Program-made: the position numbers and the translations under genes
The notes under the pieces: generated by a model
Seen by the model: the letters and a program-made list of their open reading frames with translations, nothing else
Database searches by the model: none
Told to the model about the DNA's origin: nothing
Shown here: in pieces, positions 36,667-61,600 of the stretch
Layout: every line of letters starts with the position of its first letter
Position numbering within the stretch: position 1 is the stretch's first letter
From: Scolanthus callimorphus
Lineage: Eukaryota > Cnidaria > Anthozoa > Actiniaria > Edwardsiidae
Assembly (NCBI GenBank): GCA_033964015.1
Contig: CM066920.1
Location: 13,421,912 to 13,485,911 of the forward strand
Length of the DNA: 64,000 nucleotides
Direction of reading: 5' to 3'

Positions 36667-39600
36667 ATGGCGTCCTACTTGAAGCGGGTGAGTTCAGAAA
36701 TGTCTTTTATTTTGCGTGTTTCCTTGCACTTAGCATGTGCCAAAACGCTAGTCTCTACCCAGGTGTGACTGTGAGAGCGTCCTTCCTTTTCTGCCGTGTT
36801 TCGAGCAGTGCAAAAATCAGTCTTTCCAAGGTTAAAGGCAAATAGCAGTAGAATAGCCATAGAACTACATAATCTGAACATACAAGTTACCTTTTGGGGT
36901 GCCAGAGATTAAGGGTGTTTTGTTTGTTCTTAGTCCACAGGGCTGGTAGGGCTTGCCGTCGCCAAGGCTCCACGTGAGGTATGAATATTATCCTCTACAG
37001 AGATGCAAACCTCTGACCTTCAAAATATAGGAGATTGCAGGGACGTCAACCCTGTCGCTCGAAAAACCTTGAGACACCAAAATATAGGGCTTTTGAGACA
37101 GGAAAAATACCTAGTAAATATGTCAAAATGTTGCTGTATTTTAGTGATTTTTAAGGTCCAGAAGCAAAAAAACACCTTCAGCAATTTTTCAAAGAAACCG
37201 GGAGATTTTACTTTAAAAAACTTGGAGACTGGGAGATGAAAAAAAAAAAACGGGACAAATTAAACTTGTTTAAAGTAATTTAATTTATCAGCAATAACAA
37301 TACTAAAACACATCCTATTCAGGTATGTTTATTAGCCATAATCTTTGCCACTTCAGGGATAGTAAAACATTCCTCTGCTGCAAAGGGATTAGCCTGAATT
37401 TCAGCCATCTGTTTGCTCTTGATGGTTCCTCACTAAATGCGAGAAGGAGACGTCTGAATTCACCACAAGATTTCCTCATCCATTACATAATTTATTTACA
37501 CAAAATCGGTCAGTAGAATCTTATTGGTTGAGTTTCTCAGTAAGATGTGCAGGCAGATGATACCATGACAACGCACACTCCCCCAAGCAAAAAAGCATGT
37601 TAAAACTACCATCATCTCAGACAACAAGTTGTCATAACTGTTGAAAAAGGCAGGTGTTGTCTTGGAAGCGTTGTAAAAAATAGTGGTTTTTACTTAACTG
37701 TGATTACACAATGGATGATAAAATCTTGTTGGTGAATTTAGATGTCTCTCCTCGCAAAGTGGAGTATGTTTGAAAAAGTCCTCGAAAATCCTGGATTTTT
37801 TTTCTTTACATGTACATGTTTGCACATTGTTTGAATGGTTCACGTGAAAGGAAAAAGTTCTGGAAAATGTTTGAAAAAGTCCTGCAAAATCCTGGATGTT
37901 TTTCTTTACATGTTCATGTTTGCACGTTATTTATGAATGGTTCGCATTAAAGGAAAAAGTCCTGGAAAATCCTGGATTTTTTTCTTTACAAAAGCGTATG
38001 AACCCTGCACCATTCAAAACCAGTTAGTGACTCTACTTGTCCAGTGAAAAGGGTTTACTAAAAATACATGCTCTTCTGATTTCATATTTCTCCATGATAG
38101 GCATTGATTGCATTGTACCAGAAGACCTTGGGAGTTCTGGATAAAATGCCCAAGGATGCAGCCTACAGAATCCACACAGAACAGATAACAAAGCAGCGTT
38201 TGAACATTGTAGAACAGGTAGGAATAGAGACAGGTTATTTTGTCCATTTGTTGTAGTCAAATAAAATCATCCATGGAACCCAACTGCCTTTGAAAGACAA
38301 GTAATAAAGATATTATAACCCTACCCTGTAGTTCAGACTTTTAGCATGAGAGCTCAATATTGAAATGATGAATGATCAGGCTGTGAGGTCAGGTCCTACA
38401 ATAATGTGGAACATATTTTCTACCATTGCAAATTTTTGAATGCTCCTCATATGCATATCTGAAATTCTGTAAGCGCATTCTTGGTGTTCACAATATATCT
38501 GTTAATTTAGCAGTTTATGCGGAATTGGTTAGGGTTCCAATGATTGTACAGTTGTCTGTTTTGCTGGCTAAAAGTACTGGTTACGGATAAAGGACTCTTC
38601 GTATAAAGATGAGTTGGTGGGAAAAGCTGCTAGGGTTTGTATTCAAACAGGAGCGCAGAATGTTAAATTTGTTAATCACTTATTAGAAATGTGTAATCTG
38701 AAGTCATTGGAGAATTTAGACTTTTCAGTTGGCAAAAGTAATTTTTCAATAATTTCAAAGTACATGAAATCTGAGTTATTTAAACACTTCGGTGTAACGT
38801 GGGCATGCCAGATTCAAAATTATAGTAAATTGCAGACTTATAAACTTGTTAAACCAAGAGTGGGCCTTGAAAAATATTTATTGCATGTGGCTAATGTAAA
38901 GTATCGCCGAGCAGTAACAAGGTTTAGAATTTCAGCCCACAAGTTACCCGTTGAGTCTGGGCGTTATGATAATATCCCTTATCAGTCCCGAATTTGTAAG
39001 CTTTGTGATTTGAATGAGATAGGGGACGAATTTCATGTTTACTCTCGTTGCTCAAAACCCGCTTTACAAGTGGTGCGTAAAGATTTTATTGAAAGATTGA
39101 TTGAGGTAAAATAAAGTATTTAGTAGTTTTAGTCAGAAAGATATATTTTTGTACTGTTTAGCAATGGTAGATGATTCTATTGTAAACTTAACAGCAAAGT
39201 ACGTACATTTACAGTATCAGTATATTTCAGGAATGTACGGTTTAGATCTTTTAGTTTTGCTGCTCTTTATTATTTGTATAGACTTATGTTTTCGTTTCCT
39301 ATGTACCTAAGAAAGGTGTCCAGGAATAAAGATTATTATTATTATGCAATTTTTATTACTAGTCTTTTTGTAATGTTTTATTTCCACTACCAGGAGACAG
39401 ACATTGCCGCATTAGAGACAAAGCTGAGTGCAGGACAAGTTGAGGAGGTTATCAGACAGGTAAGTAGTCAGCTTAGCTCTGCTAAGTGTAGCTCAATTTT
39501 GCTAATATTTTGTAGATTATATAATAATGCTATGAGCTAATTCATTATGGGCTACATATTATGGGCTAAACAAAACTGTTTCAACCTTTGCTGTGCACAT

Positions 39601-50550: not shown

Positions 50551-53369
50551 ATGGAGACGCCACTAGACGTCCTTTCGCGGGCAGCAAGCCTCATGAACGA
50601 GCATCGATCGCGAGGTAAGATTCAAGAGCCCTTCGGCTTCGGATCTCGCTGTGATTTTAATGTGGTATCTGCTGGTGGAGGTCGAGAAAAGTGCTAAAAT
50701 GGAAAAGGTCACTAGTGTATTAATCGATCTTTCGGTGATATCGGCAAACGATAAACATTTACGATGATTCTAACACCAAATAAAAGAGTCTCGTGAAATG
50801 TACACTAGCGGATATGGGGAACCCATTTGAGTGTCGACAGAATTCAAGGGTAGGAGTGTATCAGCAGTTGAGGGGTTTCCTAATGAGATCGGCTCCGCTC
50901 CTCCGGCTTACGAAAGGGTAATCGTTGGGTTACTAAGCACTGATCAGCCATCACTGTAATAGAATGCTTGGTATGAGAACATTTCGTCGATTATGTCAAC
51001 CATGTAAATTGGTTATTCATAAAACGCGCATTCCTCGCGTGTTTGGAAGACTTGATCGAAGCCTTTTGTGCAAGGTCGCAACGCAGCCGAGATTCACCAA
51101 AAGGTGGGGATATGTCTGTAGTTTTTGATCCGTAATTCCTCCCTGTAGTTTGGCATGTGCTTCTAGTCTTGTTTAGAGCCCGATCCGGAGCTACTATCTC
51201 GGAGTTTTGACTTGGCAAGCTACCCAAGCGTCTTATGTTTCTCTCATTTCATGCATTCCATCGACATTTTTCGGGCCTTAGAACTTGCTCGGAATAATGA
51301 CTTAAACGAGGTTTATATTCAATCTTTTACTTCATATGTTGTCGAGTGTTTGTTGAGTGAATAGCTGTGCTTGTAAAGGACAATGCCTCGTAAGTAATCA
51401 TCGTAAAAGCGGCAAGTAATTCCTTCGATTCTTTGCTTGATATGCTTGGACATGACTTCCTGACCGCTACGCTCGAAGTGCGGGGTTTACAAGTGAAATA
51501 ATTCACATTTTTTGTCTGAAAAATTGTATGAATGATTTTAATGTTTACAAAGTTAAAATTCTCTGTGAATTCCGGCGCGCAATTACAAATTACTTGAGTG
51601 TAACATGCGTTGTTATGACCAGAATCAGTGTGTATTTCTTCGAGCTGTGAAATAGCATGCATTGATTGAATCGATGCTTCAGAATTTCTACTTTTAAGTT
51701 TCTCTTCCGTGCGTGAGTTTATTTAAAAAAATTATATAACGTTTCATCTTAAGTTTCCTGTCAGCTCATTCACTGTTTGTCTCTCCTTTTGTATTCAATC
51801 TTTGAATTGCATAATGACGCACGATCGAAAGTGATAATTCATTCTTACTGATTCCTTGTATTGTTGTTGTCTCAGATTCCGGCTCTGACGCCCAAACATT
51901 CGACGAATCATCCCAAATCTCCATACCCTCTTCTGAAAATCGCAGAAAAAGGAATTTAGAGAGAAGGGACTTGGCTCAAGCTTTGAGCTTCAGTGAAACT
52001 CAGTTGGGGAAAAATTCTATGAAAACAGCTGGCACGCAAACGTGAGTTAAATCATATCTTTTATAAATGATGTATAACGTACATGGCATCATTTTGTACA
52101 AATTGTACAAATTACACTACTTGGTTTATTTGTCTTGCTGTAATCAATCCACATTTTGAACACATTGTCAATGTTTTATATTAAGTACTCTGACTCTGAA
52201 AGAGCAAACGCTAATCACATATACAGCATCATAGAAAATTAACAACCCATCACATAGTTTTACTAGGTGTTGTTGGGCATCAACCGTTTTCAGCATTACC
52301 AGTTGATCTAAGCCTGTGCAGCAGCTCTAAAGGGGAGGGGAAAGGGGAGTGAAGTTTCTCAACTTCCCCCTCCCCACCCCTTAGGATCTTGGCTATAACC
52401 AATATATATATATTTTTGTAGTATAGCATTTTATATGATGGAAATTCGCCATACACAGTAAACAGGCTCAAGTTTCACTTGAATTTGACCCTGTGTAACT
52501 TTCTGCTTATATTGTCAGTGGTGCAAGGTATCACTTGCTTGGACAACCAAGGTATCCTGGCAACCAAAGCTAGGCCTTCTCATCATATTGGCCACATCAT
52601 TTCAATGATGGAATGTAAAAAAAAGGAAAATGGAAAATATATAGCACTTCAGAGCAATTGCAGAATTCCCCTCATTCATTTGCATCTCTCTCTCAATTTT
52701 TTTTTTAATGATGCAGAAAAAATATGAAAAGGATCTTTTCATATTCCTATCAGTGAGGGGATATTCTGCAATCAAGCAGTTACTTCTTTTGTGTTACTGG
52801 CATTTATTCAGTTTCTTTTACTAATCCCTAACATATCCCTGACAACTGCTGATACTATTAAGCTATATATTCTGGTGCTGGTATTAATTTGCTGTATTCT
52901 GCTTTTTTGCAGATCTCCACTAAGCCCTGTGCCTAAATCTCGTATGGACGTTGGGCCCCCACCTCTAATTTCACTTAAAAGCAAACAAGATCAAATGGAA
53001 CAGATTCCGACAACAGTTTCCCATTCACGGCCTTCTGTTATTACATCAACTAAAGTCATACAACACCCTGTTGGATTTATGCCGCAACAAATGTATGGCG
53101 CCCAACATGCTGGAGGCAATGGAGGCTTTCATAGACGAGAGATTGTTGAGTCTGGAACTATTGATCCCTTTGTAGAGGAACATTTCAGACGAAGTCTTGG
53201 GGATGACTATATCAGGGTCAGTCCTGTTCAAAAAACTGTATCAGGTTCTGTGGATGAACATTTTGCCAAAGCTCTTGGTGAAAAATGGAATCAGATAAAC
53301 ACCACAAAGATACCATCAGCAAATCCATCAGCTCCACATATGCAGTCATTGGTGCTACCTAGCAACTGA
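50551..53369 (+). CDS. VGLL4: Vestigial-like family member 4 (three exons)
   Basis: Transcription cofactor that binds TEAD factors through TDU motifs and competes with YAP, restraining Hippo-pathway output in the nucleus. Exons: 50551-50614, 51876-52041, 52913-53369, giving 228 residues. The N-terminus METPLDVLSRAASLM is the conserved VGLL4 start. Two TDU motifs stand in the last exon: VEEHFRRSLGDDY and VDEHFAKALGEKW, the paired arrangement that separates VGLL4 from VGLL1-3. RPSVIT before them also matches the family. An in-frame ATG at 50530 would add seven residues; conservation favours 50551. It is shorter than the vertebrate protein mainly in the disordered middle. AATAAA occurs at 53447-53452. 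Confidence 0.95.
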
Positions 53370-55694: not shown

Positions 55695-58600
55695 ATGGCG
55701 GCCGATGGCGGCAAAGAAGAAGGTACCGTTCTCCAATTTGCACCATTTACGAGCGCCGTGGACTCCGTATTCTGGCACAGATTGAAAGATAAGAAGTTGG
55801 ACGTGTATCATCTTGACGATAAACCGAAATCTCTGCTTGGTTATTACGTAAACAGTAAGTTTTATCAGTGTGTTGGCTCAAACAACAGGCTTAATATTTC
55901 CGGGTGTTTTACTTTAATATTCTACTTGGCTCAAGAGTTAAGCATATCTCACGCACTTCTTTATTTCAAAATAGTTTAGTATATTCCGTAGTAGGTGTTT
56001 TAAAGGTGACGATTATCCAATAATCTCTTTTAATGCCTTTCTTTGTAGTGGAACGTAAAATAGCCAGGTGAAGAAAGTTCAAAAGTTGTTTAGGCTGGGT
56101 CCCAGGGAGCCACACCAAACTGATTCCTACGTGGTTCCCTGAACTGCTGTGAAAGGTGGCCGGGAACTTTCAGCCAAATTGGATAAGTTACTGGCCACTC
56201 TTTCATTTAATTGGCTCAGTAAGCATTTTCAAGCGACAAAGAAACTGGCAGAAAGAGTAGCTTTTGAAGACATTACAAAGAGTTGAATATTTGTGGCCCC
56301 CAAACCCATTCATAACCTGTTCAGTTCACACATTTTGAAGACTCATTTACCTGTTCGCTAATTCAGCGACATTGGTTGCTAAGTTACTTTCCCAGTTCAC
56401 CCATCATTTCTGTATACATTGTTGATGTTGATGTTACTTGCATTTACTTTGCTACCGGTAGGTGACCTGGCTGGGCTGCCATGCCGACTTAATGTTGACT
56501 ATAGTGCATTTGAAAAGTAAGTTTGGTATCTTAATAACAGCAAAAAAATAATTGGTGATCAGTATAATTTAAGAGCTTATGTTGGTCAATAGGTAAACAC
56601 TCATCACATATCCTACAGCATCTCCTTCTAAGCCCTGTCCTCTCTTGAAAAAAAAAGGCATTTGACACAATGATGCCTTTTCAGTGTATCTTGTGCAGAA
56701 TTTCATTGTTACCCCACTTACTCTAGGGTTTAATGACTGTGAAATTTCAGCAGGAAAAATAGCTTCATCTTTTGATTATCAGTTAGAGCAGGGAAGTGGT
56801 TAGATGAAACTCATCAACTGATAAACCAAGAGCACTTTGGATGTACCGGTACAGTTAGTAATCTAAATGTCGTTTTACATTCTTGTGTTTAGTGGTGCTC
56901 TACCTAAGAGAGCCTGTCAGGTCCAAGGCATGCTCATCAATACTAACACTATGGATACATTCAAAACTCTGGACAAGATTTCATTAATGGAGTCTGCAGG
57001 ACAAAGGGTAAGGGGAACATTTTCTGTTTTGTTTGAATACTAAAGCTAAATACAGTAGTATAATGAAAAGCATATTATCCAATATGTTTGTTTCCCAAAC
57101 TTTTCCATATTACCCTTCCCACGGAAGGGGGCAGCAATGTGCCCCCCTCCCCCTACATGTACCAATCTGGAATTTCCCATTAAAAACAGTGATTGTAGAG
57201 CAAATTTCAGACTTTTGTCGTGAGTAATTTGCTGCAAGGCAATTTGATTATCCCCTGCCCATGCATGTGGAAACTCTTCCTACTGGAATCACAAAATCCA
57301 CTCATAAAATAACAGCAGTGAATCTCATGCTCTGATTGGTCAAAATGTCTTCCCTTTGGGCACATGCTCAAAGGGATTAATTGCCTGACTGACGTGTGAC
57401 GTCACATGCGTATAAAAGGGGCATGCTCATTAGTTTTTAGTTAGATAGAGTAGAGTCAGAGAGACAACAACAAATAGCGTGAACTTCTTAAAATTTTATT
57501 AGAGTACAGTCGCGTGTGCCAAGGACCATCATCCAGCATTACAAGTATTCACATGCAGGCGATGTTTGCGGCTTTATGCGTTGTAATTGGCCATGGATTG
57601 GTCACATTTGCGCTACCTGCTGGCGGAGGGGAACGCCTTCAAGTGCAGCCTCCAACAGCTACTCGTACTCGCCACCACGGGAAGAACTGGGGATTACGAC
57701 ATGGTTTACTTTGCTACGGTTCCTCTGGATTTTACGGCTGGGCATTTCTAAACTCCTACCTATTCCTTCTCATCGTGGTCACGACTTTCATTCTTGGTGT
57801 GATCTTGCCTCTGAGTTTCTATCCGTTGACAATCGAGACTTTGTTTTTGAACCGCATCATTGTCGTGACTTTACTTGTGAGCGGGATCGAGACTATGAGT
57901 TTCTACCTTATTGATAATCGAGACTTGCACGATATTTCGGATGATCTATTTCTTGGCGTTCCCTTGCCTCTGAGTTTTCTATCTTGACCATCGAGACTGT
58001 TTCAACCACATCGTAGTCGTGACTTTACTTGTGTGCGGGATCGAGACTATGACTATCGCGACTTGCACGATATTCCGGATGCTATATTGGCGTGCTCTTG
58101 CCCCTGAGTTTTTCTATATTGAAAGTCGAGACTTTGTTTTTGAATCGCATCATTGCCGTGACTTTACTTGTGTGCGGAACCGCAACTACGACTTGGTACC
58201 TTATTAATAAGACCTGCACGCTATTCCGGATTAGATATTTATTTGCGTGATCGTGCTTCTGAGTTCGGGACTTTATTTTTGAATCGCATAGTTGTCGTGA
58301 CTTTACTTGATAATCGAGCCTCGCCCGATATTACTAACATTACTGTTTCCGGGAAGGCGATCATTTTCTTTTAATAGCTCGTGGAGAAAGGACATGGTTT
58401 CGTTAATTATCGAGACTTGCACGATATTCCTGATTAGATATTTATTTGCGTGATCGTGCTTCTGAGTTGTCCTATCTTACCAATCGGGACTTTATTTTTC
58501 AATCGCATAGTTGTCGTGACTTAACTTGATACTCGAGACCCGCACGATATTACTAACATTACTGTTTCTGGGAAGGCGATCATTTCTTTTCATAGCTCGT

Positions 58601-61600
58601 GGAGAAAGGACATGGTTTCGTCGTATTGACGCTGCGTGTTGGCCGACAAGTCGCAAGCAGGGGTTTTACCACGACATGTCGTCAGTTGCCCAACTCTTCC
58701 TTCTTATCATCGTGATCGACACTTCATTCTTTGCACGATCGTGCCTCTAGTTTTTCTATCTTGACACTTGAGACTTCGTTTTTGAACCGCATAGTTGTCG
58801 TGTTTTCTTTTTCTACTTAGTTGCATGCATTTGATAACCGAGACTGCTCGAAATTCCCGATTTGACATGGGCGCATTTCTATGTTCGTGACATTAATTGT
58901 GCGCCAGTTAGTGATAGTGTTTCTGTGTTTTTGTGTTCGAGGCAAGAGCCAGCTGCTGTTCGTAACTCTTCTGTTATTTAGAGCATGGTGTGCAGCGAGA
59001 CTTGATGTCTCCTTCCATTGATAACATGATAACGCACTGTTTGTGTTTCCGACCGCTGTTGATCCACCACATATTTTCATGCCGTTTGTGACAGTTTTGC
59101 AGGTTTCTCTGAAATCATCTTACTTCACTGTTCGTCATTACTGTTAACGTTTGGTGTCCCCTCTATTTCGGTGTTTCGTCTTACCATTGACAGGTGGAGT
59201 GTTTTTACGGTGTACACTCCTCTGGCGTTCGTGACTTTCCCGTCAGGGTATTAAAGAAAGTTTGTCTACTGTGTTGGCTATGGGGCGTGCCGTTTGAATC
59301 GCCCCCTTTTCAGGATGGTTGTGTGGCGTCTCCGCACTGCATTGCAAACTCTTGCTACGCGTGACTCTGGGTCGGTCTGTTAATGACGGCATTCCGCGTT
59401 CGTCTTTCTGAGACAGGAAATTGACTTGTGTTCCCTTACCGTTGGATGTCATTATGGGGAGCAATACTTTCTATGGGATCAGGATGTCCATTGTATAACC
59501 GTGACTTTTTGTGGATCGGCAGGATTATTTTGGAATAACTCATATTATTTTAATACTGTGTTTATTATGGGCCGGTGATCCGCTGCACTTTTGTCAGCGT
59601 TGTACCAGTTGTACTCGCGTCTTGGATACACTCGTATTTTGACCTTATCGGTGTTTCGATAGCACAGGCCGCCTTTATCTGATTTAATTTTCCAGTGCTT
59701 GGAGAACAGGAACTCGGCCTAAAAGTACTCTTCCTCGAAGGACAGCGAGTTATTGATCATGAATGAAACATGGTATGGACGACGTGGCGGACCTGTCTTA
59801 CAAAAACGTTGCTTAAAATAAAAACAGTGTTTCGTTGGGTACTCATCATTGTGTATTGTGTCAGAGATGTGCTCCACAGTCAAGTTTTTATTTGCCGGCC
59901 TTCTCTATGTCTCTACCGACGCGTATTTAACTTGTGTGGGCTATTGGCCTGACTAGTTGCTTTCAACGACGTTCCTCGCATCTTTCTCTATAGTAAAATT
60001 CCTTCGAGTTGTCGTACCTCTTATAAAACTCTGTGGTCATCTGAGGTTCTGGCTGGTTGTTCGCTACAATCACTCAACGAGGTTGCTGTGACGGTGTTGA
60101 CCTCGTGGGTCATCCTGTCGTGACGGGAGATATGCTTCCTCGCGGTATCCTCCAACTTTGAACTAAATTTGGTACATCCAATCACGGTACTGGACGTCCC
60201 CTCCAGACGGGACTTTACGTCAACCGCTACTCAGCTGGGAGCTACGCGCAACGTTGTACGCTATTTTGAAGCGAGCGTGACACTCGCCCATTTCAGTCTT
60301 CGAACATTTAGTTGAGGAATCAGTTGCGTTCTTATTGTTTAGTTTAGTTTAGTTTAACTTTATTTCCACAGACATATATATTTAAGATACATTACTGTTC
60401 TTGGAAGTCGTACTCTTCGGCCGCCTTTTATTAGAAATTTGTTCGTGGGGTCCAGTTACATTTTGTTTCATAGCCTTCTCACTTTCTATCATATCAACAT
60501 AATCAGTTTGGGAAGCGCAGATTACATATTCCTTTCTTGCCTATTTCGGGTTTATGTACAGTACCTGCTAGTCTCGGGTCTCACTGTTTTTTGGTGGAGT
60601 TTCGCCGTCATCTTTGTGCTACCGCAGGTAGTTCAGACGTACAGCTATCGCAGGCATTCTTTTCGACGCGGCTATGCCACTTGGTCGTTTACTTTGGGGT
60701 GCCCCGTGAAATCATACGCCGACTGGTAACGTGATGCTTCAAAGCCTTATTCAGGAGACTTTCTCTCTTGTTCTCCTTTTTGTTGGTTTCTTTTTTGTTT
60801 GTTTCTTTTCGTTTTTTGGCCGCGTGGTTTGGTGGCAGAGAGGTTTATTGTTGGTAGATTCCACTTTGTATTTGATCTTGATAATAAACTTCTCTTTGTG
60901 CCAAAAAGCGAAAAGTGTGCATTGCCTCTCACACGATCAGTTGGGAATTTCTTCCCTTTGGGCACATGCTCAAAGGGATTAATTGCCTGACTGACGTGTG
61001 ACGTCACATGCGTATAAAAGGGGCATGCTCATTAGTTTTTAGTTAGATAGAGTAGAGTCAGAGAGACAACAACAAATAGCGTGAACTTCTTAAAATTTTA
61101 TTCCCGCCCTCCCACCCGGGGATATATATTGTATAGGGTGGCAGAGAGGTTTATTGTTGGTAGATTCCACTTTGTATTTGATCTTGATAATAAACTTCTC
61201 TTTGTGCCAAAAAGCGAAAAGTGTGCATTGCCTCTCACACGATCAGTTGGGAATTGACACACTTTTGTGTGTTAGTTATTTTAGAATAGCAATAAAATGC
61301 ATTTCCTGTGTCTTCGAATTTTATAAACATTCAGGGAATGCTGGTCAAACTGATAAAAAACTTGAAAGTCACTCACCAAAGACAGCTACACAATGTGGCT
61401 TTCACGCTTCTTTATTGATTCTCCCAACATCCCCCTCATGAAATGGAAATGTGTTTTATCACTTAAATAAAAACATTATTCTGATTGTATGGCAATTACA
61501 CATATATTTTTCTTGGCATCTGGAAATGAAAGAGTAGTGTACATGGAAGATACTTGAAGCTATTGTCATTTTATCTGGCTTTTTTAGATTTGGGATGCCA

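Follow-up and report, generated by a model that had tools for sequence, protein, structure and literature searches.

We analyzed a stretch of 64,000 nucleotides from the sea anemone Scolanthus callimorphus (GenBank assembly GCA_033964015.1, contig CM066920.1, positions 13,421,912 to 13,485,911, forward strand; hereafter the window), in which a 3908-bp element with split direct repeats (SDR) lies in an intron of the gene ATG7. The element (57348-61255) is very probably a non-autonomous SDR retroelement, which likely spread with reverse transcriptase (RT) and tyrosine recombinase (YR) supplied by Ngaro-type relatives in the same genome; judged from its sequence it was recently active. The argument for relatives' enzymes combines a broken YR gene in the element, other copies that share its lesions and an exact empty site.

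The element has the order A1-interior-B1-A2-spacer-B2 (Table 1). The two copies of A (153 bp) and the two copies of B (119 bp) agree in 272 of 272 bases, and the identity ends exactly at the repeat edges; zero differences in 272 bases limit the divergence of the repeats to at most about 1.1% (95%). B1 directly adjoins A2. An earlier note on this DNA, made from the letters alone, had described this order, the lengths and the complete identity of the repeat pairs, a B1/A2 junction equal to the joined ends of the element, and promoter motifs in A with a polyadenylation signal in B. All of this was recovered at the same coordinates, the motifs were located in both copies of each repeat and similar junctions occur in relatives; the 34 bp between A2 and B2 had been missed.

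The edges of the element are fixed by an empty site. A second copy of the ATG7 intron, which is either a duplicated gene or an unmerged allele, lies 283 kb upstream on the contig of the window copy (C10:13196168-13196763; C-numbers denote contigs and L-numbers fetched stretches) and does not contain the element. The left 300-bp flank corresponds to C10:13196168-13196466 (99%) and the right 300-bp flank to 13196467-13196763 (98%), and these two segments are side by side. Across the insertion point all 90 of 90 bases of the empty site (L055) are those of the joined window flanks. The insertion of 3908 bp occurred between ...CAAAATG and GACACAC..., and the target was neither duplicated nor lost.

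The target sites resemble the predicted circle joint. B ends in AATT, and the left target cores of 13 sites agree with these four bases at 44 of 52 positions; none of 20000 random sets of window positions scored as well. For this count L026/L027, L010/L011, L040/L036 and L035/L037 were each taken once, and incomplete left edges and internal B/A joints were excluded. The left core differs from the AATT at the right edge at six of the nine sites with both edges read; hence the cores are not a target duplication. At the window site the target is AATG and the right edge AATT, so the fourth position need not match.

Three queries were run against the whole assembly (596.8 Mb in 302 contigs): A, with 40 of 69 candidates scored; B, with 40 of 99; and the 300 bp at the 5' end of the interior, with 8 of 8. 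We fetched 20 larger stretches; 3 of the 40 scored A matches and 12 of the 40 scored B matches were left unread. The interior query found six loci, on C10 (the window copy), C8, C14, C1, C13 and C3, plus an alternative contig (C59, with the flanks of C1) and a short form on C204, the flanks of which match L027 on C14. The full order A1-interior-B1-A2-x-B2, where x is the spacer, is also present in L031, L032, L033 and L034. These four copies and the window copy have five different flanks, none of which is shared within 15 bases on either side. The repeat pairs inside each copy show 0-1 mismatches, with gapped columns in L032 and up to 14 of them in L033 and L034, and the interiors are 96.6-99.4% identical between copies. 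The copy in L032 carries an insertion of about 1.7 kb, L034 contains 100 N, and the copy on C1 (L040/L041) is split at interior position 731/734 by a nested insertion of 26.4 kb. Since the same layout stands at other loci with other flanks, it is not a local artefact; a local duplication made by the assembly, a doubt that the earlier note had raised itself, is ruled out by the four further loci and the fifth one split by 26 kb.

A and B also occur in reduced arrangements. A-x-B is found alone (L003, L010/L011, L045) and in tandem (L016/L017, L047), B-A-x-B without an interior is found at other loci, and L026/L027 is a short A-...-B form without x. Such units would be expected if the window contained a tandem pair, namely a 3.6-kb A-interior-B element and an internally deleted 306-bp A-x-B element, one inserted beside the other. 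We consider such a pair very unlikely, however, because the same order with exact B/A joints exists at five loci with differing flanks, and because B1-A2-x-B2 follows the recombinase in L039, L051, L041 and L052, as a single unit predicts. The promoter and polyadenylation signals in the repeats, together with the lone A-x-B copies that look like solo long terminal repeats (LTRs), could also suggest a conventional LTR retrotransposon or a large retrotransposon derivative with a rearranged LTR, inserted by a DDE integrase. This origin is extremely improbable: the empty site reveals no short target duplication, the relatives encode YR, and no fetched locus has an interior flanked by A-x-B on both sides, the arrangement that the earlier note had named as evidence for ordinary LTRs. 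The class was therefore rejected. For isolated AB repeats, recombination of 5' and 3' repeats has been proposed as the origin in the part of the Ngaro description drawn on here (PMC8547959). We suggest that lone A-x-B units might alternatively arise from resolution of a circle at its two joints; the data may fit both origins. C6 (L016/L017) has two tandem A-x-B units and C25 (L021) has one; these are apparently alternative contigs of one locus, and the difference is an apparent copy-number variation of the 306-bp unit.

The interior contains remains of coding sequence and no intact gene. Its longest open frame has 161 codons; 33 of 300 sequences simulated with the dinucleotide composition of the interior contained one as long, so this frame is no evidence of a gene. 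No related protein was found at E 0.01 for a 144-codon frame at 57553 (34 candidates), and none for a 554-codon frame elsewhere in the window (6057 candidates). The sole Pfam match in six frames of A1-interior-B1 was a sub-threshold Fasciclin (13.9 bits, cut-off 22). Rfam gave no match at gathering scores, three chance-level matches beneath them and no ribozyme, for which reason a retrozyme was dropped as a candidate. The interior does align with the recombinase region of a related element, L039. In tblastn with the L039 YR the pieces are in order, with 48% identity over 48 and 46% over 41 residues (E 8e-8); the 355-codon YR frame of a second relative, L051, gave E 2e-6 and 38.9 bits, compared with at most 25.0 bits in 200 shuffles. 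RT pieces of L051 detected stretches 5' of the YR remains, in the expected order, at E 0.016-0.023; these traces are only suggestive. The earlier statement that the element lacks recognisable coding capacity thus stands with regard to intact genes, but it overlooked the decayed recombinase and the weak RT-like pieces.

The window copy has only a broken YR and hence does not encode a working recombinase. When the five full copies were aligned relative to L039, nine gap runs (47, 30, 12, 9, 7, 6, 2, 1 and 1 columns) appeared in the last third of the YR region. They amount to eight separate deletions; the 12- and 9-column runs look like one. All nine runs are common to the five copies, and 11 columns are gapped in only some of them. 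The shared runs imply that an already broken element was copied, and descent from such an element is also what the different flanks, the near-identical repeat pairs and the similar interiors indicate. We also considered independent decay of the five copies, or their spread as DNA by segmental duplication, in place of mobilisation in trans. No intact partner with matching ends was found and some short contigs repeat one and the same locus, as this explanation would allow. It is nevertheless highly improbable in view of the flanks, which differ at all five loci, the shared gap runs, the near-identical repeats within copies and the exact empty site of one copy.

Relatives with recombinase genes are abundant. 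With the recombinase part of L039 as a query, 150 YR matches were scored of 249 candidates in the genome, many of them stop-free; the 150 include some loci counted as two frames. L039 has the same 3' block as the window copy, and 5' of its B1 a Phage_integrase match in broken frames (E 6.6e-4, 19.9 bits, cut-off 27.1). In L051 a 477-codon frame without a Pfam match occupies the gag position; it is followed by a frame for RT and RNase H, the YR frame of 355 codons and then B1-A2-x-B2, with a joint GGGGAATT/TTTCCCTCTTTGGGC like that of the window. B1 follows the YR region in the window copy, L039 and L051 alike. L041 and L052 represent further families with this arrangement; of two further regions only L052 was informative, as the 1200 bases fetched of L053 were free of split repeats. 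The YR frames of L051 and L041 (350 codons) are open, with weak (0.098) or no Pfam matches. RVT_1 was found in L041 (4.9e-11) and, below the cut-off, in L051 (0.0067), and the two RTs match each other (tblastn, 1e-48). A Pfam search of the three L051 frames at E 0.1 gave no methyltransferase domain, nor did one of six frames of the window interior at E 1; a missing Pfam match is weak evidence. Among named proteins the YR is best matched by uncharacterized ones of Nematostella (70-73%) and of Pocillopora (73%, across one third of the query). The viral collection yielded no relative of the YR, and neither it nor the prokaryotic collection contained the exact patterns taken from A or B. L054, a contaminant in a metagenome-assembled genome, has a YR with 31% identity and neither repeats nor CCCACCC in the following 537 bases. 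The 26.4-kb nested insertion on C1 (L040:1959 to L041:5366, about half read) contains the L041 RT/YR element; its frames match an OTU protease and a YqaJ/viral alkaline exonuclease, its ends, by eye, are inverted (CATGACGAGCTTAG/CTAAGCTCGTCATG), and it is a candidate for a large DNA transposon or virus-like element.

These results agree with what the earlier note had proposed on mobility: recent movement with the further copies and the exact empty site, YR-type integration with the core match at insertion sites, the absence of a duplication at the empty site and the recombinase genes of relatives, and dependence on enzymes in trans with the shared lesions and the same relatives. The search for autonomous elements sharing the A and B ends, which it had recommended, gave YR relatives of the same design but none with closely matching A and B.

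Several observations weigh against mobilisation by such relatives. No coding element was found with A and B as similar as those within the broken family. As a helper, L039 has an A of 78% and a B of 86-88% identity to the window copy and a frame-broken YR; L051 has an A that resembles the window A over only about the first 40 bases, and its A1 is truncated, the first part being missing. All 8 of 8 matches to the 5' interior belong to broken copies, one of them on an alternative contig and one a short form, and no YR match among the 150 listed is closer than 50 kb to any of the 12 unread B matches (of 40 scored). Taken one by one, the RT traces in the window do not exceed shuffled sequences. 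The arms of the joint palindrome (5 bp) are matched in 687 of 20000 random joins; such a short palindrome is not significant, and the arms by themselves do not mark a recombinase site. Further poly(A)-like signals in the interior, ATTAAA at 59250 and AATAAA at 59817, would have to be passed by a full-length RNA. Finally, both ends of the RNA, the circular intermediate and the enzymatic steps are inferred.

The proposed cycle is as follows. RNA polymerase II would start about 30 bp past the TATA box of A1, near 57441, and the RNA would end about 20 nt past AATAAA in B2, near 61215. Such an RNA would be short of about 93 bases of A and 40 bases of B. Both segments stand joined in the internal B1A2 block, which would serve as a template when the cDNA is closed into a circle. 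The joint of this circle would be GGGAATT/TCTTCCC, and the recombinase of a relative would exchange it with a target that reads AATN. It may be the C-rich spacer beside B2 that causes transcripts to read through B1, whose poly(A) signal is the same, and to terminate in B2.

The motif CCCACCC in this spacer was chosen from the window and L051 and tested on the families of L041 and L052, in both of which it is present. It lies at -26 from B2 in the window and L039, at -29 and -21 in L051, at -12 in L041 and at -50 in L052, and it is absent just upstream of B1 in the same five elements. The background is 6 of 598 stretches of 190 bp in the window and 27 of 1965 in L031-L050 away from B. An exact pattern of four C-tracts followed by the first bases of B has 45 occurrences in the genome, counting alternative contigs, against 0 for the backward control. 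It stands 390-653 bp 3' of the YR on the right strand in 10 of the best 30 YR matches (of 150), and the other 20 are without it. Four full C-tracts are not retained in all copies, and L003 has lost CCCACCC. In mammals, poly(C)-binding proteins have a global effect on 3' processing according to the cited part of one study (PMC4797308). A bolder and rather unlikely proposal is that the tract, a potential quadruplex on the opposite strand, is a dedicated 3'-end selector in SDR retrotransposons: the poly(A) signal of B1 would be passed and that of B2 used, B1A2 would thus become the circle-closing template, and broken elements that keep A, B and the tract would stay mobile. Hairpins in B were considered and dropped, because they are clear against shuffles in L039 only (shuffles as stable: window 19 of 200, L051 7 of 200, L039 0 of 200, L041 16 of 200).

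An SDR element without working genes has thus moved recently in an animal genome, as the exact empty site and the shared lesions indicate. What its copies have retained is A, B, the joint of the two and the C-rich spacer. The requirements in cis thereby become testable, as does the question of how the RNA comes to end at the second poly(A) signal when the first is identical.

Table 1. Features of the element and of the ATG7 site (window positions).
Feature	Position	Strand	Basis
Repeat A1, left end; CRE (cAMP response element, TGACGTCA) at 57397, TATA box (TATAAA) at 57411	57348..57500	+	equal to A2 over 153 bp; left edge set by empty site
Interior, T-rich, with degenerate ~140-bp repeats at 57794-58817	57501..60830	+	AT skew; repeat comparison
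Possible reverse-transcriptase traces, individually weak, order as expected	59370..59590	+	tblastn with L051 RT pieces
Decayed tyrosine-recombinase gene, HSFRRG box from about 60655	60406..60750	+	tblastn; nine gap runs common to five copies
Repeat B1; AATAAA at 60883	60831..60949	+	identical to B2
B1/A2 junction GGGAATT/TCTTCCC, joined element ends, predicted circle joint	60943..60956	+	sequence; similar junctions in relatives
Repeat A2; CRE at 60999, TATA box at 61013	60950..61102	+	identical to A1
34-bp spacer x, C-rich tract CCCGCCCTCCCACCC	61103..61136	+	CCCACCC in B1-B2 interval of five elements, four families
Repeat B2, right end; AATAAA at 61189	61137..61255	+	equal to B1; right edge set by empty site
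ATG7 exons 5' of host intron	about 55731-55898 and 56897-57010	+	Pfam ATG7_N, second just below cut-off

The AT skew of the interior on the + strand is -0.275; 217 other windows of the same size span -0.126 to 0.183. The two ATG7_N matches have 44.1 bits (cut-off 27) and 26.1 bits, and a following ATG7 exon near 61588 was read by eye only. The host is an ATG7 intron, as the earlier note had it, but its number, given there as 3, is not established. A match resembling VGLL4 adjoins ATG7 at 52992-53210 (26.2 bits, cut-off 27); VGLL4 and ATG7 are adjacent in vertebrates too. A 180-codon frame at 38572-39114 resembles, by eye, the end of the reverse transcriptase of a long interspersed nuclear element.

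We compared the element with known systems. Helitrons have a 3' CTRR end and insert between A and T; they were rejected, because the element ends in AATT and was inserted between G and G. Ngaro elements integrate without target site duplication, as was found at the window site. Split direct repeats with the internal pair downstream of the YR are present, isolated AB repeats occur and YR is encoded in relatives; no methyltransferase was matched by Pfam in L051 and the window interior, which is weak evidence. The layout, the lack of a target duplication and the genes of the relatives fit the Ngaro type, which has, in the part of its description cited here, the order A1-[ORFs]-B1A2B2 (ORFs, open reading frames), a YR instead of an integrase and isolated AB repeats elsewhere (PMC8547959). 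Ngaro elements encode a YR, however, and the window copy itself encodes nothing intact; it is therefore filed as a non-autonomous derivative and not as a full member. A PAT-like element was set aside because L051 has no methyltransferase match; this exclusion is not strict, because a PAT lineage in Caenorhabditis briggsae has lost the methyltransferase, as stated in the cited part of PMC4157794. We found no animal case of a non-autonomous Ngaro-type element in a literature search that largely did not extend to subscription journals and Repbase. In the available part of a study on a caecilian, DIRS and Ngaro are reported and non-autonomous elements in general are transcribed, and no non-autonomous Ngaro is named there (PMC8498967). 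For DIRS1-like elements, for which integration without target duplication is the printed rule, the text drawn on here describes a 3-bp circle junction that recombines with the same target sequence, ATT being the commonest end (PMC3266345); the model of recombination between junction and target is the same, but the repeats are inverted there and split direct repeats here. Animal non-autonomous Cryptons are, according to the cited portion of PMC3212892, defective YR-type copies mobilised by relatives; they are, however, DNA transposons and have neither RT nor split repeats.

The earlier note had held that a non-autonomous SDR element with its own promoter in A and polyadenylation signal in B would be little described; non-autonomous SDR elements as such are already known from TOC1 and SIRE. 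TOC1 of Chlamydomonas has split repeats, no RT gene and internal tandem repeats. By this description it resembles the element here; it comes from a green alga and is PAT-related. SIRE of Trypanosoma cruzi, a short relative of VIPER, is non-autonomous and consists of the A2 of VIPER, about 30 bp of its own and the B2 of VIPER in the accessible part of its description (PMC6681497). By layout only, it is like the A2-34 bp-B2 arrangement here and is the closest printed parallel found to the short form; SIRE, however, is a kinetoplastid element with the short form only, whereas in S. callimorphus the full 3.9-kb split-repeat unit has also been copied.

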